From: Xanthostigma xanthostigma
Taxonomy: Eukaryota > Arthropoda > Insecta > Raphidioptera > Raphidiidae
DNA length: 64,000 nucleotides
Reading direction: 5' to 3'
Assembly: GCA_963575645.1 (NCBI GenBank)
Contig: OY754466.1
Coordinates: 16,656,001 to 16,720,000 of the forward strand
Shown here: positions 13,881 through 48,904 of the stretch, piece by piece
How the letters are laid out: every line of letters begins with the position of its first letter
Numbering within the stretch: the stretch's first letter is position 1
Notes under the pieces: generated by a model
Databases searched by the model: none
Told to the model about the DNA's origin: nothing
Seen by the model: the letters and a program-made list of their open reading frames with translations, nothing else
Made by a program: the position numbers and the translations under genes

Positions 13881-14241
13881 CATTTTTATACAATTCGTAA
13901 AGACCGTAGCACACGAGGCTGAAAACACTGCTAGAACTTCTGCTGGCTGGCAGGCTGGGTACAAGTCTGCGGGCTCGCCTGATAGCTCACAAGATATATT
14001 TTAAAATTAGGGACTATTTTTCTTGCTAGGTTCTCTGCTTGCTCTGAGCAAGAACCAATCAGGAAACAGTATCTTGTCACGTGAGCTCACAAACCAACAT
14101 GGCGTCATTCTGCTCAGTCAGACAACAGGCACGTTTTGCTCTGTGTTTATATTTGAACTGTTACTGCGCGCGCACCAGCGATTCATCCACAAAGCCAACT
14201 TGAAAAGACGTCTCGTGTGAAGCGAAGACATAAAAGCAATA

Positions 14242-15024
14242 GTTGGCAAAACCAAAAGTGCACATCCCGCAAGTTTTCCACTGTACATATTATAATGAAA
14301 AAAAATTGAGAAAATAGATTTAAAAAAAAAAAAACAATTAAAAAAATAGAAAAAAAATAAAAATAAAATGGAATAGAAAAAAAAAATATTACTTGGTGTC
14401 AAGCGGGAATCGAACTCGGCACCTTGCTATTACTGGACTACGCGTTTAACCACTCGGCCATTCTGATATCCCAGCTTGCGTTGTTATTATGGTATAGAAG
14501 TGGAGCAGTTATTCTACGTAATACACTACATTACAATAACAGTAATAGATATTTTTTTGTTTTTTTAAGGTTTTTTTATTTTAACTATTAGCTGTCAAAA
14601 ATAATAAAATAAAACTGTTTATAAAAATTAAACTACTGAACACATTTATGTGAATTTAAATAGGGTTCTGGTCTGATAGTAAACAAAGTGAATAAAATAT
14701 AACCCAAGGCAATCCGACCAAAATTGCGATCTGTAGAGTCGTGACGTACGTACATACGTACATACGTACATCCGTACATACGTACAGACCAACCGACAAC
14801 TGCTGTTTGTAACTTTCAATTACAATTTTAATAGTATTTATGAACTCGAATTGATTTAAAAATGGTTCTGTTTTATAGATCAGAATCTCCTCTTTTCAAA
14901 AAGCTTCAATTTGAATGGATTTCGTGTGAAATTAACTTAGATATAACTTCTTATATGAACGAAAGTCAGCTCTGATGCTCAAAGCGATAATAAAGCACAT
15001 ACCGCTAATTTAGCGGTATGTGCA
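14242..15024 (+). mobile_element. Family E element, copy 1
   Basis: Begins TA|GTTGGCAAAACCAAAAG and ends with a hairpin, GCACATACCGCTA-ATT-TAGCGGTATGTGC. In between come an A-rich tract, a reverse-oriented tRNA-like module (14393-14472), a (TACG)n tract (about 14744-14787) and a conserved 3' third. Nearly identical to the minus-strand copy at 41948-42716 and less similar to the plus-strand copy at 40827-41915. No protein is encoded. Confidence 0.75.
14393..14472 (-). ncRNA. tRNA-like module inside E copy 1
   Basis: Read on the minus strand: A box TGGCCGAGTGGTTAA, B box AGTTCGATTCCCGC. It resembles a Leu/Ser-type tRNA head but lacks a clean cloverleaf. Probably a pol III promoter remnant of a SINE-like part. 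Confidence 0.6.
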
Positions 15025-24179: not shown

Positions 24180-24799
24180 TCTATACTAATATATAAAGCT
24201 GAAGAGTTTGTTTGTTTGTTTCAACGCGCTAATCTCAGGAACTACTGGTTAAAATTGAAAAAAAAAATTTTTGTTGGATAGCCCATTTATCGAGGAAGGC
24301 TATAGGCTATATAATATCATGCTACGACCATAAGGAGCGGAGCATTAATGAAAAATGTTGCAAAATGTATCTCAAAAATAAGCTTTTATTCATGTGAAAT
24401 GCACTAACTAGATACACTCATATTAGCGTTTAGAGTACAAAATTCCAGATGGCTCAATCGGTAGAGCATGCGACTGTCAATATCAGGGTCGTGGGTTCGA
24501 GCCCTACGTTGGGCGAATATATAATTTTATTTTTTTTTATTTTCTTCATTGCTTTCTTCTAAGGCTTACATTTAAATTTATTTTAATTTTATTTAATTAA
24601 TTAAAAAAAAATTATTACTTAAGAAAAGTATAAATACTGCTTTTTTTTCGCCAAAAACTTTTGAAGGGTGCTTTCTCCGATCATTATGAAATTTGGACAC
24701 AACATTCATCTCGGTAAACTAAGATGAATGTGTGTACTCGTGTTCCTCCTTTCCCCATTCGTTCTTTTACACCCGGGTGAAACTGGACGGGACCGCTAG
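24180..24799 (+). mobile_element. Nonautonomous Helitron carrying a tRNA-Lys-derived insert
   Basis: Starts TCTATACTAATATATAAAGC and ends GGGACCGCTAG, sitting between A (24179) and T (24800) exactly as Helitrons do. A CACCCGGGTG palindrome lies about 20 bp before the 3' end. The same termini occur at 38235-38475 and 49215-49545. Compared with the latter, about 24378-24642 is extra and contains a tRNA-Lys-like sequence, so a SINE appears to have inserted into or been captured by this copy. No Rep/helicase gene is present. Confidence 0.88.
24444..24515 (+). ncRNA. tRNA-Lys-like sequence (SINE head or decayed tRNA)
   Basis: CCAGATGGCTCAATCGGTAG (A box) and GTGGGTTCGAGCCCTACG (B box and T arm) followed by TTGGGCG match the layout of animal tRNA-Lys. 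The 5' acceptor strand is eroded and the anticodon region reads CTGTCAA rather than a Lys anticodon, so it is not a working tRNA-Lys. Confidence 0.7.
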
Positions 24800-37082: not shown

Positions 37083-37860
37083 AACTTGGTGACTGATGAT
37101 GAGATAAGAATAACTTGAGATATTAAAATAATAGTTGGGTGACTAAATTACTAAGTGAGCGACTAGAATGCTTTCGGTAATAATTTTGAAGCAGATATTT
37201 TCTTTTGTTTTTACTTTTTATTTTTTTTTTTCACTTTGAGACTACACATTAAAACTCACATTATCATGAAGATTGAAAACCACCGCTTTTTTTAATAAAG
37301 GGGTATGCGAATTGTCTCGCAGTGAAACACAATGGGGCAAAGGTGGAGTTTTTAAAAAAATAATTCCGGGGTGAACGATAAACGGGTATGCGAATTGTAA
37401 ATCCGGGGTGAACGATAAACGACTATGCGAATTGTCTCGCAGGGAAACGAGAAGGGGCAAATGTGGAGTTTTTAAAAAAGCAATTCCGGGGTGAACGATA
37501 ACGGGGTTAAAGAGTTAATTGTTTGAATAGAACCGCGTTTTCTAAAAAATGTAAATTTAATTGACAGTCAGTTAAATATATATTTTTTAGAAAAAATGCC
37601 GCTCAGAATAAATAAATGATTTGCCAAATTAAAAAAAAAAATGCAGGACGTAACGTTGACACTCAAACAAATATTAGGTCGCTCAAATATTATGAAGCTT
37701 CCCATTTTTTATTTTAAGTAACTCAAATGGATATTTGTAAGTTGCTGTTCTGTTGATTTCTCGTCACGCGCAGTCAGTCGCTCACTTAGTAATACAGTAA
37801 CCCAAATTGATTATTTTTGTCACCTAAAATTGTAATTTACAGTCACTCGTTTAAATACTA
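37083..37860. mobile_element. Diverged TIR element with a tandem interior
   Basis: GTTGGGTGACTAAATTACTAAGTGAGCGACT (37133-37165) is the inverse of AGTCGCTCACTTAGTAATACAGTAACCCAA (37774-37805). Weaker pairing runs outward to TGGTGACTG / CAGTCACTC. The interior holds the tandem block at 37297-37503. No transposase; family unknown. Confidence 0.55.
37297..37503. repeat. Tandem block of about 122-bp period, 1.7 units
   Basis: GGGTATGCGAATTGTCTCGCAG...AATTCCGGGGTGAACGATAA occurs at 37302-37382 and 37421-37502, with a shortened 38-bp unit between. Frames read through it only by chance. Confidence 0.85.
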
Positions 37861-40562: not shown

Positions 40563-40826
40563 TAATAATAATAATAATTTTTATTAATCCAGTAGATCGT
40601 AAGATATAAGACATGTCAATATATATATATATATAAAATATTATATCACGTTAGAATTTTCAATTACTAACGAAAACAATAATAAACAAATAATAATAAA
40701 TAATTATAAATAAATAACAATCAAAATAAGATAAAATGACGAACAATAACAAATATATAAATAACAAATAAAACAAAATAAAATGTAAATAACAAATTAA
40801 AAGTCATTTAAAAAATCATTAAAATA

Positions 40827-41915
40827 GTTGGCAAAACCAAAAGTGCACATCCCGCAAGTTTTCCACTGTACATTATATTATAATGAAAAAAATTGAGAAA
40901 ATAGATTAAAACAAATAAAAAAAAAATAAAAGTATACGAGAAACATTAGTAAAATAAGAAATTTTTTTTAGCAATTATGCACGGGTTTTGCTCTCAAAAA
41001 TCCCGATTTTTTGAGTTTCTTGTCCTAGTTTATTGACTTTCTAGTTTATCGAAGAACGCATTTTATAGACACAATATCCCAAAACACTATTTTTCAAGAA
41101 TATCCCACCGCTACACTAGCGGTATGTGCAATAGATTAAAAAAAACAATTAAAAAATTAAAATGAAAAAAATAAAATAAAAAAAAAAAATAATAATAAAA
41201 AAAATATATGAGAAATATATTATATATAATATATAAATATTAAGTGGAATTAAGTGGAATAAATGGGAATATATAAAAAAAAAAAATTCTTATGTCAGCG
41301 GGAATCGAACCCGGCACCTTGGGATTACAGGACTTACGCTTTAACCGTTCGGCCACACCGATGCCGTACAACGCCTTTGTTATTATGGTATAGAAGTGTA
41401 GCAGTTATTTTACGTATCATACTACATTAATTGAGTATATTTATTATGTTTTTTGTTTTTTTATTTTAATTAGCTGTCAAAAATAATAAAAAAAAAACTG
41501 TTTATAAAAATTAAACTACTGAACACATTTTAGTGAATTTAAATAGGGTTCTGGTCTGATAGTAAACAAAGTGAATAAAATATAACCCAAGGGGATCCGA
41601 CCAAAATTGCGATCTGTAGAGTCGTGACGTACGTACATACGTACGTACGTACGTACGTACGTACGTACATACGTACAGACCAACCGACAACTGCTGTTTG
41701 TGATTTTCAATTACAATTTTAATAGTATTTATGAACTCGAATTGATTTAAAAATGGTTCTGTTTTATAGATCAGAATCTCCTCTTTTCAAAAAGTTTCAT
41801 TTTGAATGGATTTCGTGTGAAATTAACTTAGATATAACTTCTTATCTGAACGAAAGTCAGCTCTGTTGCACAAAGCGATAATAAAGCACATACCGCTAGT
41901 TTAGCGGTATGTGCA
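40827..41915 (+). mobile_element. Family E element, copy 2 (plus arm of palindrome)
   Basis: From TA|GTTGGCAAAACC to the hairpin GCACATACCGCTA-GT-TTAGCGGTATGTGC. It includes an expanded (TACG)n tract (41628-41675) and a reverse tRNA-like module. A 222-bp insert (about 40909-41130) is bounded by ATAGATTA repeats (40901 and 41131) and itself ends in CTAGCGGTATGTGC. Confidence 0.75.
41292..41368 (-). ncRNA. tRNA-like module in E copy 2
   Basis: Minus strand: TGTGGCCGAACGGTTAAAGC (A box) and CCGGGTTCGATTCCCGCTGA (perfect T arm and B box). Of the E copies this has the best-preserved pol III elements. A full acceptor stem is not evident. Confidence 0.65.
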
Positions 41916-41947
41916 AAACAATAATATGCCTTTCCAATTAACATATT

Positions 41948-42716
41948 GCACATACCGCTAAATTAGCGGTATGTGCTTTATTATCGCTTTGAGCGTCAGA
42001 GCTGACTTTCGTTCATATAAGAAGTTATATCTAAGTTAATTTCACACGAAATCCATTCAAATTGAAGCTTTTTGAAAAGAGGAGATTCTGATCTATAAAA
42101 CAGAACCATTTTTAAATCAATTCGAGTTCATAAATACTATTAAAATTGTAATTGAAAGTTACAAACAGCAGTTGTCGGTTGGTCTGTACGTATGTACGGA
42201 TGTACGTATGTACGTACGTCACGACTCTACAGATCGCAATTTTGGTCGGATTGCCTTGGGTTATATTTTATTCACTTTGTTTACTATCAGACCAGAACCC
42301 TATTTAAATTCACATAAATGTGTTCAGTAGTTTAATTTTTATAAACAGTTTTATTTTATTATTTTTGACAGCTAATAGTTAAAATAAAAAACCTTAAAAA
42401 AACAAAAAAATACCTATTACTGTTATTGTAATGTAGTGTATTACGTAGAATAACTGCTCCACTTCTATACCATAATAACAACGCAAGCTGGGATATCAGA
42501 ATGGCCGAGTGGTTAAACGCGTAGTCCAGTAATAGCAAGGTGCCGAGTTCGATTCCCGCTGACACCAAGTAAATTTTTTTTTTCTATTCCATTTTATTTT
42601 TATTTTTTTTTCTATTTTTTTAATTGTTTTTTTTTTAAATCTATTTTCTCAATTTTTTTTCATTATAATATGTACAGTGGAAAACTTGCGGGATGTGCAC
42701 TTTTGGTTTTGCCAAC
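41948..42716 (-). mobile_element. Family E element, copy 3 (minus arm of palindrome)
   Basis: Mirror of copy 2, with GTTGGC at its outer end next to TA (42717-42718). Its tRNA module, (TACG)n tract and hairpin are almost identical to copy 1 at 14242-15024, and clearly different from copy 2 in the tRNA part. Confidence 0.78.
42489..42567 (+). ncRNA. tRNA-like module in E copy 3
   Basis: ATGGCCGAGTGGTTAAACGC (A box) and GAGTTCGATTCCCGCT (B box). Points away from the module of copy 2. Confidence 0.62.
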
Positions 42717-43679
42717 TATTTTTTATTAAAAATGAAAAATCTTTAAAATTTAAGAGCTTTATATCTTTAGGTATTTTATTAAAAGCTTTTATAGCTGAGT
42801 ATTTAATGCCTTTTTCATAAAAAGTGGACTTATGCCTAGGATAAAATAAAACTATGTCATTTCTAGTGTTATAATTATGAAATTGTTGTACTGTAGAAAA
42901 TTCATTAATATTTTTGCGCGCATATAATAGCAACTGAAATATGTACAAACTAGGAACGGTCATAATTTCTAATTTTTTAAAAATATCTTTACAGCTCGTT
43001 CTGCTGTTAACACCAAACATGGCACGAATGGCTCTTTTTTGTAACTTAAAAACCCTGCACACTTCAGAAGCATTCCCCCAAGCAATTATGCCATAAGAAA
43101 TATGGGAATGGAAGAATGCAAAATAAAAACTTTTTAAAATATTAAAATGGACTGTTGGCCTAAGCTGTTTTAATACATAACATGTGGAAGCAAGCTTGCT
43201 GCACAAGTTATCAATATGTATACTCCAACTGCAATTTTGATCTATAACCACACCAAGAAATTTTGTACTATTCACTTGCGCAATGCTCAAACTATTGGTT
43301 TTTACTAAAAGACTATGATCTATGTTTTTATTAGAAATATTAAATTTTATCATAACTGATTTTTTATTATTAAGAAATAATTTATTTTTAGAAAACCATT
43401 GATGTAGAGTAGATAGATCTTCATTGGCAATAGAGGTAATATCAGAACTTACATCAGAATTCACAAAAACAGATGTGTCATCGGCAAACATTATTGTATT
43501 GTTAAGTGGTATATCATTGACATATATAATAAATAATAAAGGACCTAAAACAGATCCCTGAGGAACGCCTTTAGAGAGATATAAACGCTCAGACTGTTTG
43601 TCCTTTAACTGCACAAAATGTGATCTTCCACTAAGGTAAGATTTAAACCAACTCCAAGTGATACCTCTGATACCATAGT
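42717..43679 (-). pseudogene. LINE reverse transcriptase, C-terminal half
   Basis: The frame is open from the truncation point, with no genuine start codon. In order: GIRGITWSWFKSYLSGR, GVPQGSVLGPLLFIIYVNDI, MFADDTSVFV with the catalytic Asp pair, FLNNKKSVMIKF, FLGVVIDQNCSW, and a long tail (HSHISYGIIAWGNA, KLQKRAIRAMFG). These are RT motifs 3-7 and thumb wording of Jockey/CR1-type non-LTR retrotransposons. The N-terminal half, endonuclease and ORF1 are absent. The E insertion breaks the frame about six codons before the natural stop and adds 16 codons of E sequence. Dead copy. Confidence 0.85.
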
Positions 43680-44325
43680 TTTACGTGATAACGTATTCCG
43701 TAATACATAACCTAAACCTCCCAAAATTTGGTTTCAATCCGCTTATCCTTGGTGTCGGAATGATAAGAAATGTCAAAAGTGACGTTTGCAACTGTCAAAG
43801 TATTATGTTCTAATAATAATTAGTTATTCCAATACTTAACTTAGAAGGCGTTGCATTTCACAAAATACTAATGTCAAAAAATTGAATTAAACATTAGAAA
43901 TGCAGCCGTTTTCATGTTAAGACAAGACATACGTTATTTTCTAATTTCCATGTACGGCAAACAAAGACGACCGACCGCGTCGCGCCATGCATTAGACAAC
44001 ATTGCATTTATACAGCTATTTTTCTATATAAATTTGTATAAAAAAACTGTTTAGGCAAATTCTGTTATACGAAATCTATGTAAAATGTTCTCCTCTTTCG
44101 TTTAAGACTGGTTTCAAACCGATCTGATTTAAATTGAGCGAGAAATTAGCAAAAAGCACGCACAGGGTCAGGCGGAACGTTACGCGTTACGAACGTTAGG
44201 AACGTTAGGAACGTTACACTTTTTCGTGCATGCAGCCGGTGTTTTATCAATTTATAAGATTGGTGATTCATCAATTTATAAGATTGGTGATTCATCAATT
44301 TATAAGACGTTATCACGTCAAAAAT
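43677..44325 (+). repeat. Repeat G, right part, inside element L
   Basis: GTTTTACGTGATAACGTATTC to ACGTTATCACGTCAAAA, whose ends are inverse to each other (about 16 bp). Carries TTGGTGTCGGAATGATAAG, CAACTGTCAAAGTATTATG and small GTTAGGAAC direct repeats at about 44195-44218. Other copies at 54662 and 55455. Confidence 0.75.
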
Positions 44326-48399: not shown

Positions 48400-48770
48400 T
48401 GTACTCTATTATCACTTTACGTCAGAGGTTTCGTTAATTCAAGAAGCTATATCTAGGCTAATTGTGCACGAAACACATTCAAATTGTAGCTTTTTGAAAA
48501 AAGAAAGATTGTGTTCTATAAAGTGGAACCACGGCTAGGTTGATTCAAGTTCATAATAAGTCCTAAAATTTTAACTGATAACTGCGAACTGCGTACGTCC
48601 AAACTGTACAGGTCGGATATCTAGACGATACGCCTATAGATTTATTAATTTTTATTTTAATTGTTTACTGTGAGCATAAAACCCTATTTAAATTAATTAA
48701 AATGCGTTCAGTGGTTTAATTTTTATAAACAATTTTATTTTATTATTTTATGACAGCTAATAAAGTATTC
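48400..48770 (-). mobile_element. Diverged family E fragment
   Basis: TCAAGAAGCTATATCTAGGCTAAT, TTCAAATTGTAGCTTTTTGAAAA and ATTTATAAACAATTTTATTTTATTATTT follow the order of the 41990-42370 part of E copy 3, at lower identity. tRNA module and ends are missing. Confidence 0.65.
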
Positions 48771-48904
48771 AAAATAGATAATGAATATACATGACGCATC
48801 ATCAACATACTATTTTATCAACGACTAAAGTGGATAAAATAGCGTCCGACAGTAAACGGTTTAATTGAGATAGGCTGGAAAGCTTTTATGGCGCGTGTAT
48901 ACGA

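Follow-up and report, generated by a model that had tools for sequence, protein, structure and literature searches.

A 1.9-kb palindrome read as two probable insertions of one Helitron2-like non-autonomous family into a single retrotransposon copy

Helitron2-type elements of Fusarium, in the sections of the report on which we draw (PMC5148889), have asymmetric inverted repeats with terminal hairpins, insert between TNAT and T or A, and occur as nested self-insertions and with joined ends. HINE/DINE-1 elements, as characterized in the part of the source used here (PMC4067079), are non-autonomous Helentrons that occupy T-rich sites, leave the target unmodified and vary in their number of Ts. The published signature, as far as those sections go, combines asymmetric inverted repeats with terminal hairpins and with T-rich targets that are left unmodified (PMC5148889, PMC4067079), and on this basis the family described below, which we call E, is assigned to the Helitron2-type class.

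The structure analysed here is a 1.9-kb palindrome at positions 40827..42716 of a 64,000-nucleotide stretch of DNA (C3:16656001-16720000 of a 623-Mb genome; hereafter the window, whose ORFs look insect-like and whose positions are used throughout). It most probably consists of two independent opposite-strand insertions, 31 bp apart, of one high-copy non-coding family (non-autonomous Helitron2/Helentron-like, HINE-like) into one copy of a non-LTR retrotransposon, a reading to which we give a probability of roughly 0.88. On this reading the palindrome as such is coincidental, and its odd appearance yields a clean case for reading a Helitron2-type insertion rule: two insertions in one retrotransposon, together with empty relatives, reveal which letters are the element's.

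The initial annotation had placed two inverted arms at 40827-41915 (plus) and 41948-42716 (minus strand), each starting with GTTGGCAAAACC right after TA, and this arrangement was borne out. In the element's own 5' to 3' sense, which is the reverse of the sense in which E was first described, copy 1 (the plus arm) occupies 40824..41915 on the minus strand, with a T at 41915, the 5' hairpin at 41914-41886 and the 3' end ...CCAACTAT at 40824; copy 2 (the minus arm) occupies 41947..42719 on the plus strand, with a T at 41947, the 5' hairpin at 41948-41976 and the 3' end CCAACTAT at 42719. Repeat detection places a (TACG)n microsatellite in each (41627..41676 in copy 1, 42185..42216 in copy 2). Three-way local alignment agrees with the earlier observation that the minus arm is closer to a distant copy than to its own partner: it is 97.8% identical to 14242-15023 over 783 columns versus 84.6% over 747 columns for the plus arm (from its position 363 onward) against the minus arm, so that arm-to-arm identity does not exceed that between the minus arm and the distant copy. 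The latter is a solo E on the minus strand (14239..15024, by alignment) of the same subfamily as copy 2; the plus arm, again from its position 363, matches it at 85.6% over 752 columns, and the first 131 bp of the plus arm form a separate alignment block at 84-87%. A simple inverted duplication is, as had been argued, insufficient to explain the palindrome, and we reject it because the arms are too unlike each other relative to the 14242 copy.

Copy 1 also holds an extra segment (40900..41141, minus strand, by alignment) that lies between 12-bp direct repeats AATAGATTAAAA; about 220 bp of the plus arm (near 40908-41129) are absent from both the minus arm and the solo copy, and a second 5'-type hairpin (41108-41129) stands at the end of this stretch. 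The second hairpin may represent a second 5' terminus; some copies of Fusarium Helitrons have several 5' termini, according to the cited part of that report (PMC5148889). The hairpin of the extra segment was also seen at overlapping sampled loci on C1 (L007/L008).

The 31 bp between the arms (41916..41946, minus strand) derive from the 3' end of the reverse-transcriptase ORF of a non-LTR retrotransposon and are found unbroken at 21 other places in the genome. An ORF and domain search identified the upstream part of the host copy at 42720..43680 on the minus strand, where it is interrupted by E copy 2; the minus-strand ORF, with its RVT_1 domain (Pfam E-value 2.2e-15), spans 42649-43680 and thus extends into the minus arm. 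Past E copy 1 lies the downstream remainder (40745..40823, minus strand), recognized by alignment to the 21 loci, with an 80-bp flank compared. Read on the minus strand, flank, spacer and far flank form one continuous retrotransposon 3' end. The 21 loci were recovered with a 35-letter pattern joining the spacer to the sequence past the plus arm (0-3 mismatches; control 0) and so lack the plus-arm insertion by construction of the search. At 16 of them the spacer also continues upstream into the sequence found past the minus arm (for only ~30 bp at L064), the upstream sequence being divergent at the other five (L057, L065, L066, L068 and L069), and E sequence was not seen within the 60 bp inspected on each side of any of the 21. 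Because the spacer is unbroken with both outer flanks elsewhere, the two arms are two insertions, 31 bp apart, in one retrotransposon copy.

Ends of E number about 4,000 in the genome (2014 + 1933, up to 3 mismatches; control 0), and the median divergence from the consensus is 1.3% among 60 aligned copies of the main subfamily; judged from sequence identity, the family looks young. In its own sense E begins with a T and the palindrome GCACATACCGCTAAAYTAGCGGTATGTGC, followed by ~800 bp, GCGGGATGTGC and 21 nt that close with the end TTGGTTTTGCCAAC-TAT, so that a copy opens with T-GCACATACCGC...hairpin and finishes with ...TTGGTTTTGCCAACTAT. The ~800-bp interior has no evident coding frame and includes the (TACG)n tract and a tRNA-like module. 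Next to the host, the 5' end presents a T and a 29-nt palindromic hairpin (13 bp, -22.2 kcal/mol, RNA parameters); the 3' hairpin is weak (5 bp including one G-T pair, -3.1 kcal/mol, RNA parameters) and is followed by CTAT. The 11-mer GCACATACCGC at the 5' end recurs in asymmetric inverted form as GCGGGATGTGC, at 10/11 positions, 21 nt before the 3' end. In the window, 48400-48790 on the minus strand matches the E body at 66-69% over ~410-460 columns and represents an old, diverged relative; E ends were not seen in the 551 bp read around it.

E fits a new, abundant non-coding family of a known kind, the Helitron2-type non-autonomous elements: it has both an asymmetric inverted repeat whose 3' copy, at 21 nt, falls within the ~20-40 bp from the end expected for the class, and a hairpin at each terminus, the 3' one weak. 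In the sections cited, the Fusarium FoHelis likewise have a 5' hairpin holding the asymmetric inverted repeat with its 3' copy 20-40 bp inside the end, resemble E in the several 5' termini of some copies (putative in E), in nested self-insertion and in joined-end forms, and in the case of FoHeli1/2 insert, like E, between TNAT and T or A; they differ in that they include coding copies and in that FoHeli1/2 end in ATTTT, whereas E ends in CTAT, resides in an animal and yielded no coding copy (PMC5148889). HINE/DINE-1 elements share with E, on the evidence of the part of the source used, a non-coding nature, high copy number, a palindromic subterminal inverted repeat, a terminal hairpin, a microsatellite in some copies and TT-rich unmodified sites with a varying number of Ts, but the repeats of mite HINEs measure 12-15 bp and lie 38-60 bp from the 3' end, versus 11 nt and 21 nt in E, which in addition carries the tRNA-like module (PMC4067079). 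Since both values of E lie below those of the strict mite-type HINE definition, the family is filed as Helitron2-type and called only 'HINE-like'. Canonical Helitrons (Helitron1), as outlined in the same part of the Fusarium report, have a 3' hairpin near the end, as does E, but also 5'-TC and CTRR ends and an A^T target, which are missing in E (PMC5148889).

The insertion rule was read from 102 ends, comprising 100 places with exact 26-mers in the first 17.8 Mb of C1, all fetched (L008 was dropped because it overlaps L007), and the three window copies; 92 were paired with a 5' hairpin and 10 had none within 1.4 kb, the sample being biased to intact 3' ends. Eighty-eight of the 92, with a T beside the hairpin, were kept, and four were set aside (L021, with an altered end, and L045, L046 and L047, false pairings in nested copies). 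The letter preceding the hairpin-adjacent T was T in all 88, and the four letters before the hairpin, of which the last T is fixed by selection, were TATT in 55, AATT in 16, TTTT in 12, TGTT in 3, and TCTT and CATT in 1 each. At the other end TAT followed CCAAC in 87 of the 88, the next host letter being T in 76. The 5' flank was other than TATT in 33 of the 88, yet TAT after CCAAC was retained in nearly all of these; since the 3' letters do not track the non-TATT 5' flanks, TAT is not a copied target. Genome-wide, TAT follows 2986 of 3069 exact 3' ends. The TA belongs to the element and is no duplication shared by a unit.

Empty relatives are consistent with this rule. Joined-flank probes found an uninterrupted relative (>=85% identity) for 22 of the 92 copies, with net extra letters at the filled sites of 4 in 11 cases, 3 in 5, 2 in 3, 6 in 2 and 1 in 1; a T plus TAT as element letters, inserted without duplication, predicts 4, which is the modal value, with some slack in T runs and between relatives. 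Five empty sites have no TA at the junction (window plus arm, L047, L048, L105 and L111). Where targets already contain TAT (L007, L046, L085, L108 and others) a 3-nt TAT duplication fits equally well as none, and at T-run targets, the window plus arm included, a 1-4 nt T duplication is compatible. From these comparisons we infer that E probably makes no target-site duplication, T runs leaving 1-4 nt ambiguous at some sites, and that it inserts at T^T, mostly at TAT^T, with the same 1-4 nt ambiguity wherever TAT or T runs are present. In the mechanism proposed, a Helitron-type HUH Rep protein encoded elsewhere would nick at TAT^T; starting at the 5' hairpin, one strand would be peeled off as far as the 3' hairpin and would then be joined to a TAT^T target, which may also be the end of a resident element.

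Head-to-tail pairs of E within 30 bp occur at 17 places in the genome (exact patterns), and 15 of these have the joint CCAAC-TATT-GCACATACC, in its full form the identical GGTTTTGCCAAC-TATT-GCACATACCGC. Three such TATT dimers were read (L122, C1:51.50M; L123, C1:72.52M; L124, C3:46.42M): the units of one are identical, with 0 mismatches in 709 aligned columns, and those of the other two differ, being 80-81% alike, a sign of insertion at the 3' end of a resident copy. As identical and differing units are both seen, the TATT joint could arise from multimers or by insertion at a resident TAT^T, and is not by itself proof of rolling-circle multimers. Such exact joints offer a genomic test of where a rolling-circle Rep cuts, and together with the variable tRNA-like module they are the points worth following. 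A fuller scenario joins the two: E would be a rolling-circle element for which the 3' ends of resident relatives are favoured landing sites, giving exact TATT joints even between subfamilies, and whose near-uniform body carries a rapidly exchanged tRNA-like cassette with pol III boxes. We regard it as tentative and, in its entirety, rather unlikely.

The initial annotation had offered two explanations for the palindrome, two insertions tip-to-tip or a hetero-dimer of two E subfamilies transposing as one 1.9-kb palindromic unit; the first stood, in view of the spacer's continuity with the outer flanks elsewhere, and the second did not. The hetero-dimer would account for inverted arms that both have TA as their outer letters, and two further tip-to-tip pairs do exist in the genome. 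Yet its spacer is retrotransposon DNA that at other loci runs on into the outer flanks; a genome-wide search (exact hairpin tips only, 15-45 bp spacers) returned three tip-to-tip pairs with three unrelated spacers, so that the expected head-to-head pairs with the same spacer did not materialize; and the outer TA, once taken as the sign of a single unit, is part of each element's own end, present at 2986 of the 3069 exact 3' ends whether these are paired or not. Within these searches, arms and spacer together were not found repeated at more than one locus, and we consider a palindromic unit at this locus scarcely credible. Two insertions account for the pairs as well, even though our own arithmetic predicts only ~0.2 such tip-to-tip pairs under even scatter of copies versus the 3 found, because E favours T-rich sites and its own copies: 8 of the 22 copies with empty relatives, at 7 loci, are nested in another E (L007, L045, L046, L047, L048 twice, L102 and L109; partly by eye). 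Tail-to-tail pairs within 30 bp were absent from an exact-pattern search of the genome.

Other element classes were weighed against the Helitron2-type assignment on the same data. The TA that stands beside GTTGG at nearly every copy would agree with a Tc1/mariner-like TIR transposon or MITE that duplicates a TA target, or with a foldback element, but the other end is bordered by TT instead (the 88 kept of 92), TA arrives with the element at the five empty sites named above, and the position of the inverted repeat relative to the terminus differs by ~21 nt from one end to the other; with TA on both sides borne out neither by the flanks, nor by the empty sites, nor by the genome-wide 3' ends, we reject a TA-duplicating TIR element as very improbable. 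Box-B matches (up to 3 mismatches) in 89 of the 92 copies, and differing modules on one body, would suit a SINE whose pol III head is the tRNA-like module. The module, however, is internal (~500 nt in), E has fixed ends, and the 22 empty sites show no 7-20 bp target duplications; a tRNA-derived 5' head, target duplications and a simple 3' tail were thus not found, and the SINE is likewise rejected, its chances being very slight. Recombination through a short TATT core, by a tyrosine-recombinase (Crypton-like) element, is a little less improbable, though still very unlikely: TATT-like letters occur at both borders and the exact TATT joint is also compatible with a circle junction, against which stand the constancy of TAT on the CCAAC side despite the frequent non-TATT letters of the other flank, and the terminal hairpin with asymmetric inverted repeat, which is the Helitron2 pattern.

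Each arm carries a pair of boxes resembling the A and B boxes of pol III promoters, at 41301..41355 on the minus strand in copy 1 (exact match) and 42502..42556 on the plus strand in copy 2 (one mismatch), in a scan that allowed one mismatch per box and gave 2 matches in 20 base-composition shuffles of the whole window. Both pairs face outward, as had been claimed; as to identity, 'tRNA-like' is the description that holds, a tRNA being called in the arms by neither ARAGORN at default settings nor Rfam. Rfam (E-value<=1) returned a 15-nt tmRNA match over box B of copy 1, with 13.6 bits against a gathering score of 47, and similar ones in L044 and L019, as well as longer weak tmRNA matches elsewhere in E, below the gathering score (one reported match per clan). 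ARAGORN with a relaxed threshold and introns permitted proposed several low-quality candidates in each copy, including one over the copy 1 module (tRNA-Arg, 8-nt intron). Rfam miRNA matches were also below their gathering scores and were treated as chance hairpin matches; within the window they coincide with the palindrome and the (TACG)n tract. A second box-A/box-B pair, outside E, lies in the window at 24450-24504 on the plus strand (TGGCTCAATCGG...GGTTCGAGCCC, two mismatches) and presumably marks something akin to a tRNA-derived SINE.

Five module types can be told apart among the box-B matches, of which two are represented by one copy each; L123 has the same module as copy 1. A 122-column stretch covering the module and the start of a T run has 57 distinct haplotypes in 60 copies, versus 22, 23, 24 and 30 in four stretches of equal length (indels counted). 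Variants were counted in the main subfamily, in 57 of the 60 aligned copies after three divergent ones were dropped. The module has 0.347 shared variants per site, compared with 0.140 for the 400-500 stretch next to it and 0.000-0.115 for the rest (0.020 and 0.015 for two body stretches); singletons per site reach 0.263 in the module versus 0.146 in the two body stretches (Poisson P 0.005), with 0.300 in the 400-500 stretch. Because singletons are equally high in that stretch, the excess lies mostly in shared variants, at the level of source lineages, and reaches beyond the module. This variability may come either from exchange of the module or from constraint on the rest of E. The A and B boxes were not significantly more conserved than the rest of the module (8/22 versus 36/73 variable sites, Fisher P 0.34), and the consensus fold of the module gave no cloverleaf. 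A search for a reservoir outside E found 2051 module places in the genome (up to 3 mismatches), fewer than E ends; among the matches listed for exact modules in the first 17.8 Mb of C1, 21 of 24 stand beside a listed E end and three do not (by eye). Our literature search found no report of a Helitron with a captured tRNA and SINE, nor of E's sequence strings.

A source of Rep for E within this genome is plausible: it contains 89 matches to Helitron_like_N (Rep), the best with an E-value of 3.1e-59, and 14 control genomes contain none. E-type ends were not found in the partial flanks read at 2 of the 89 matches (at the first, only ~490 bp ahead of the long frame), and no Rep match among those listed was seen by eye near any of the 19 hairpins with a non-T next letter. 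At L118 (C2:56142700-56145700) a Helitron Rep match lies inside a 2241-aa frame, with an Ulp1-type cysteine protease-like part upstream of it (by eye) and short repeated peptide units in other frames. Downstream of another Rep match (L121, C16:29000-30600) is a minisatellite with units like CCGGGGTGAACGATAAAGGGGTATGCGAATTG, and a similar 37-bp unit, TAAATCCGGGGTGAACGATAAACGACTATGCGAATTG, occurs in the window at 37361-37435. At 340-1356 on the plus strand the window also encodes a tyrosine recombinase domain of the phage-integrase type, preceded by a reverse transcriptase, a domain order known from DIRS-like retrotransposons.
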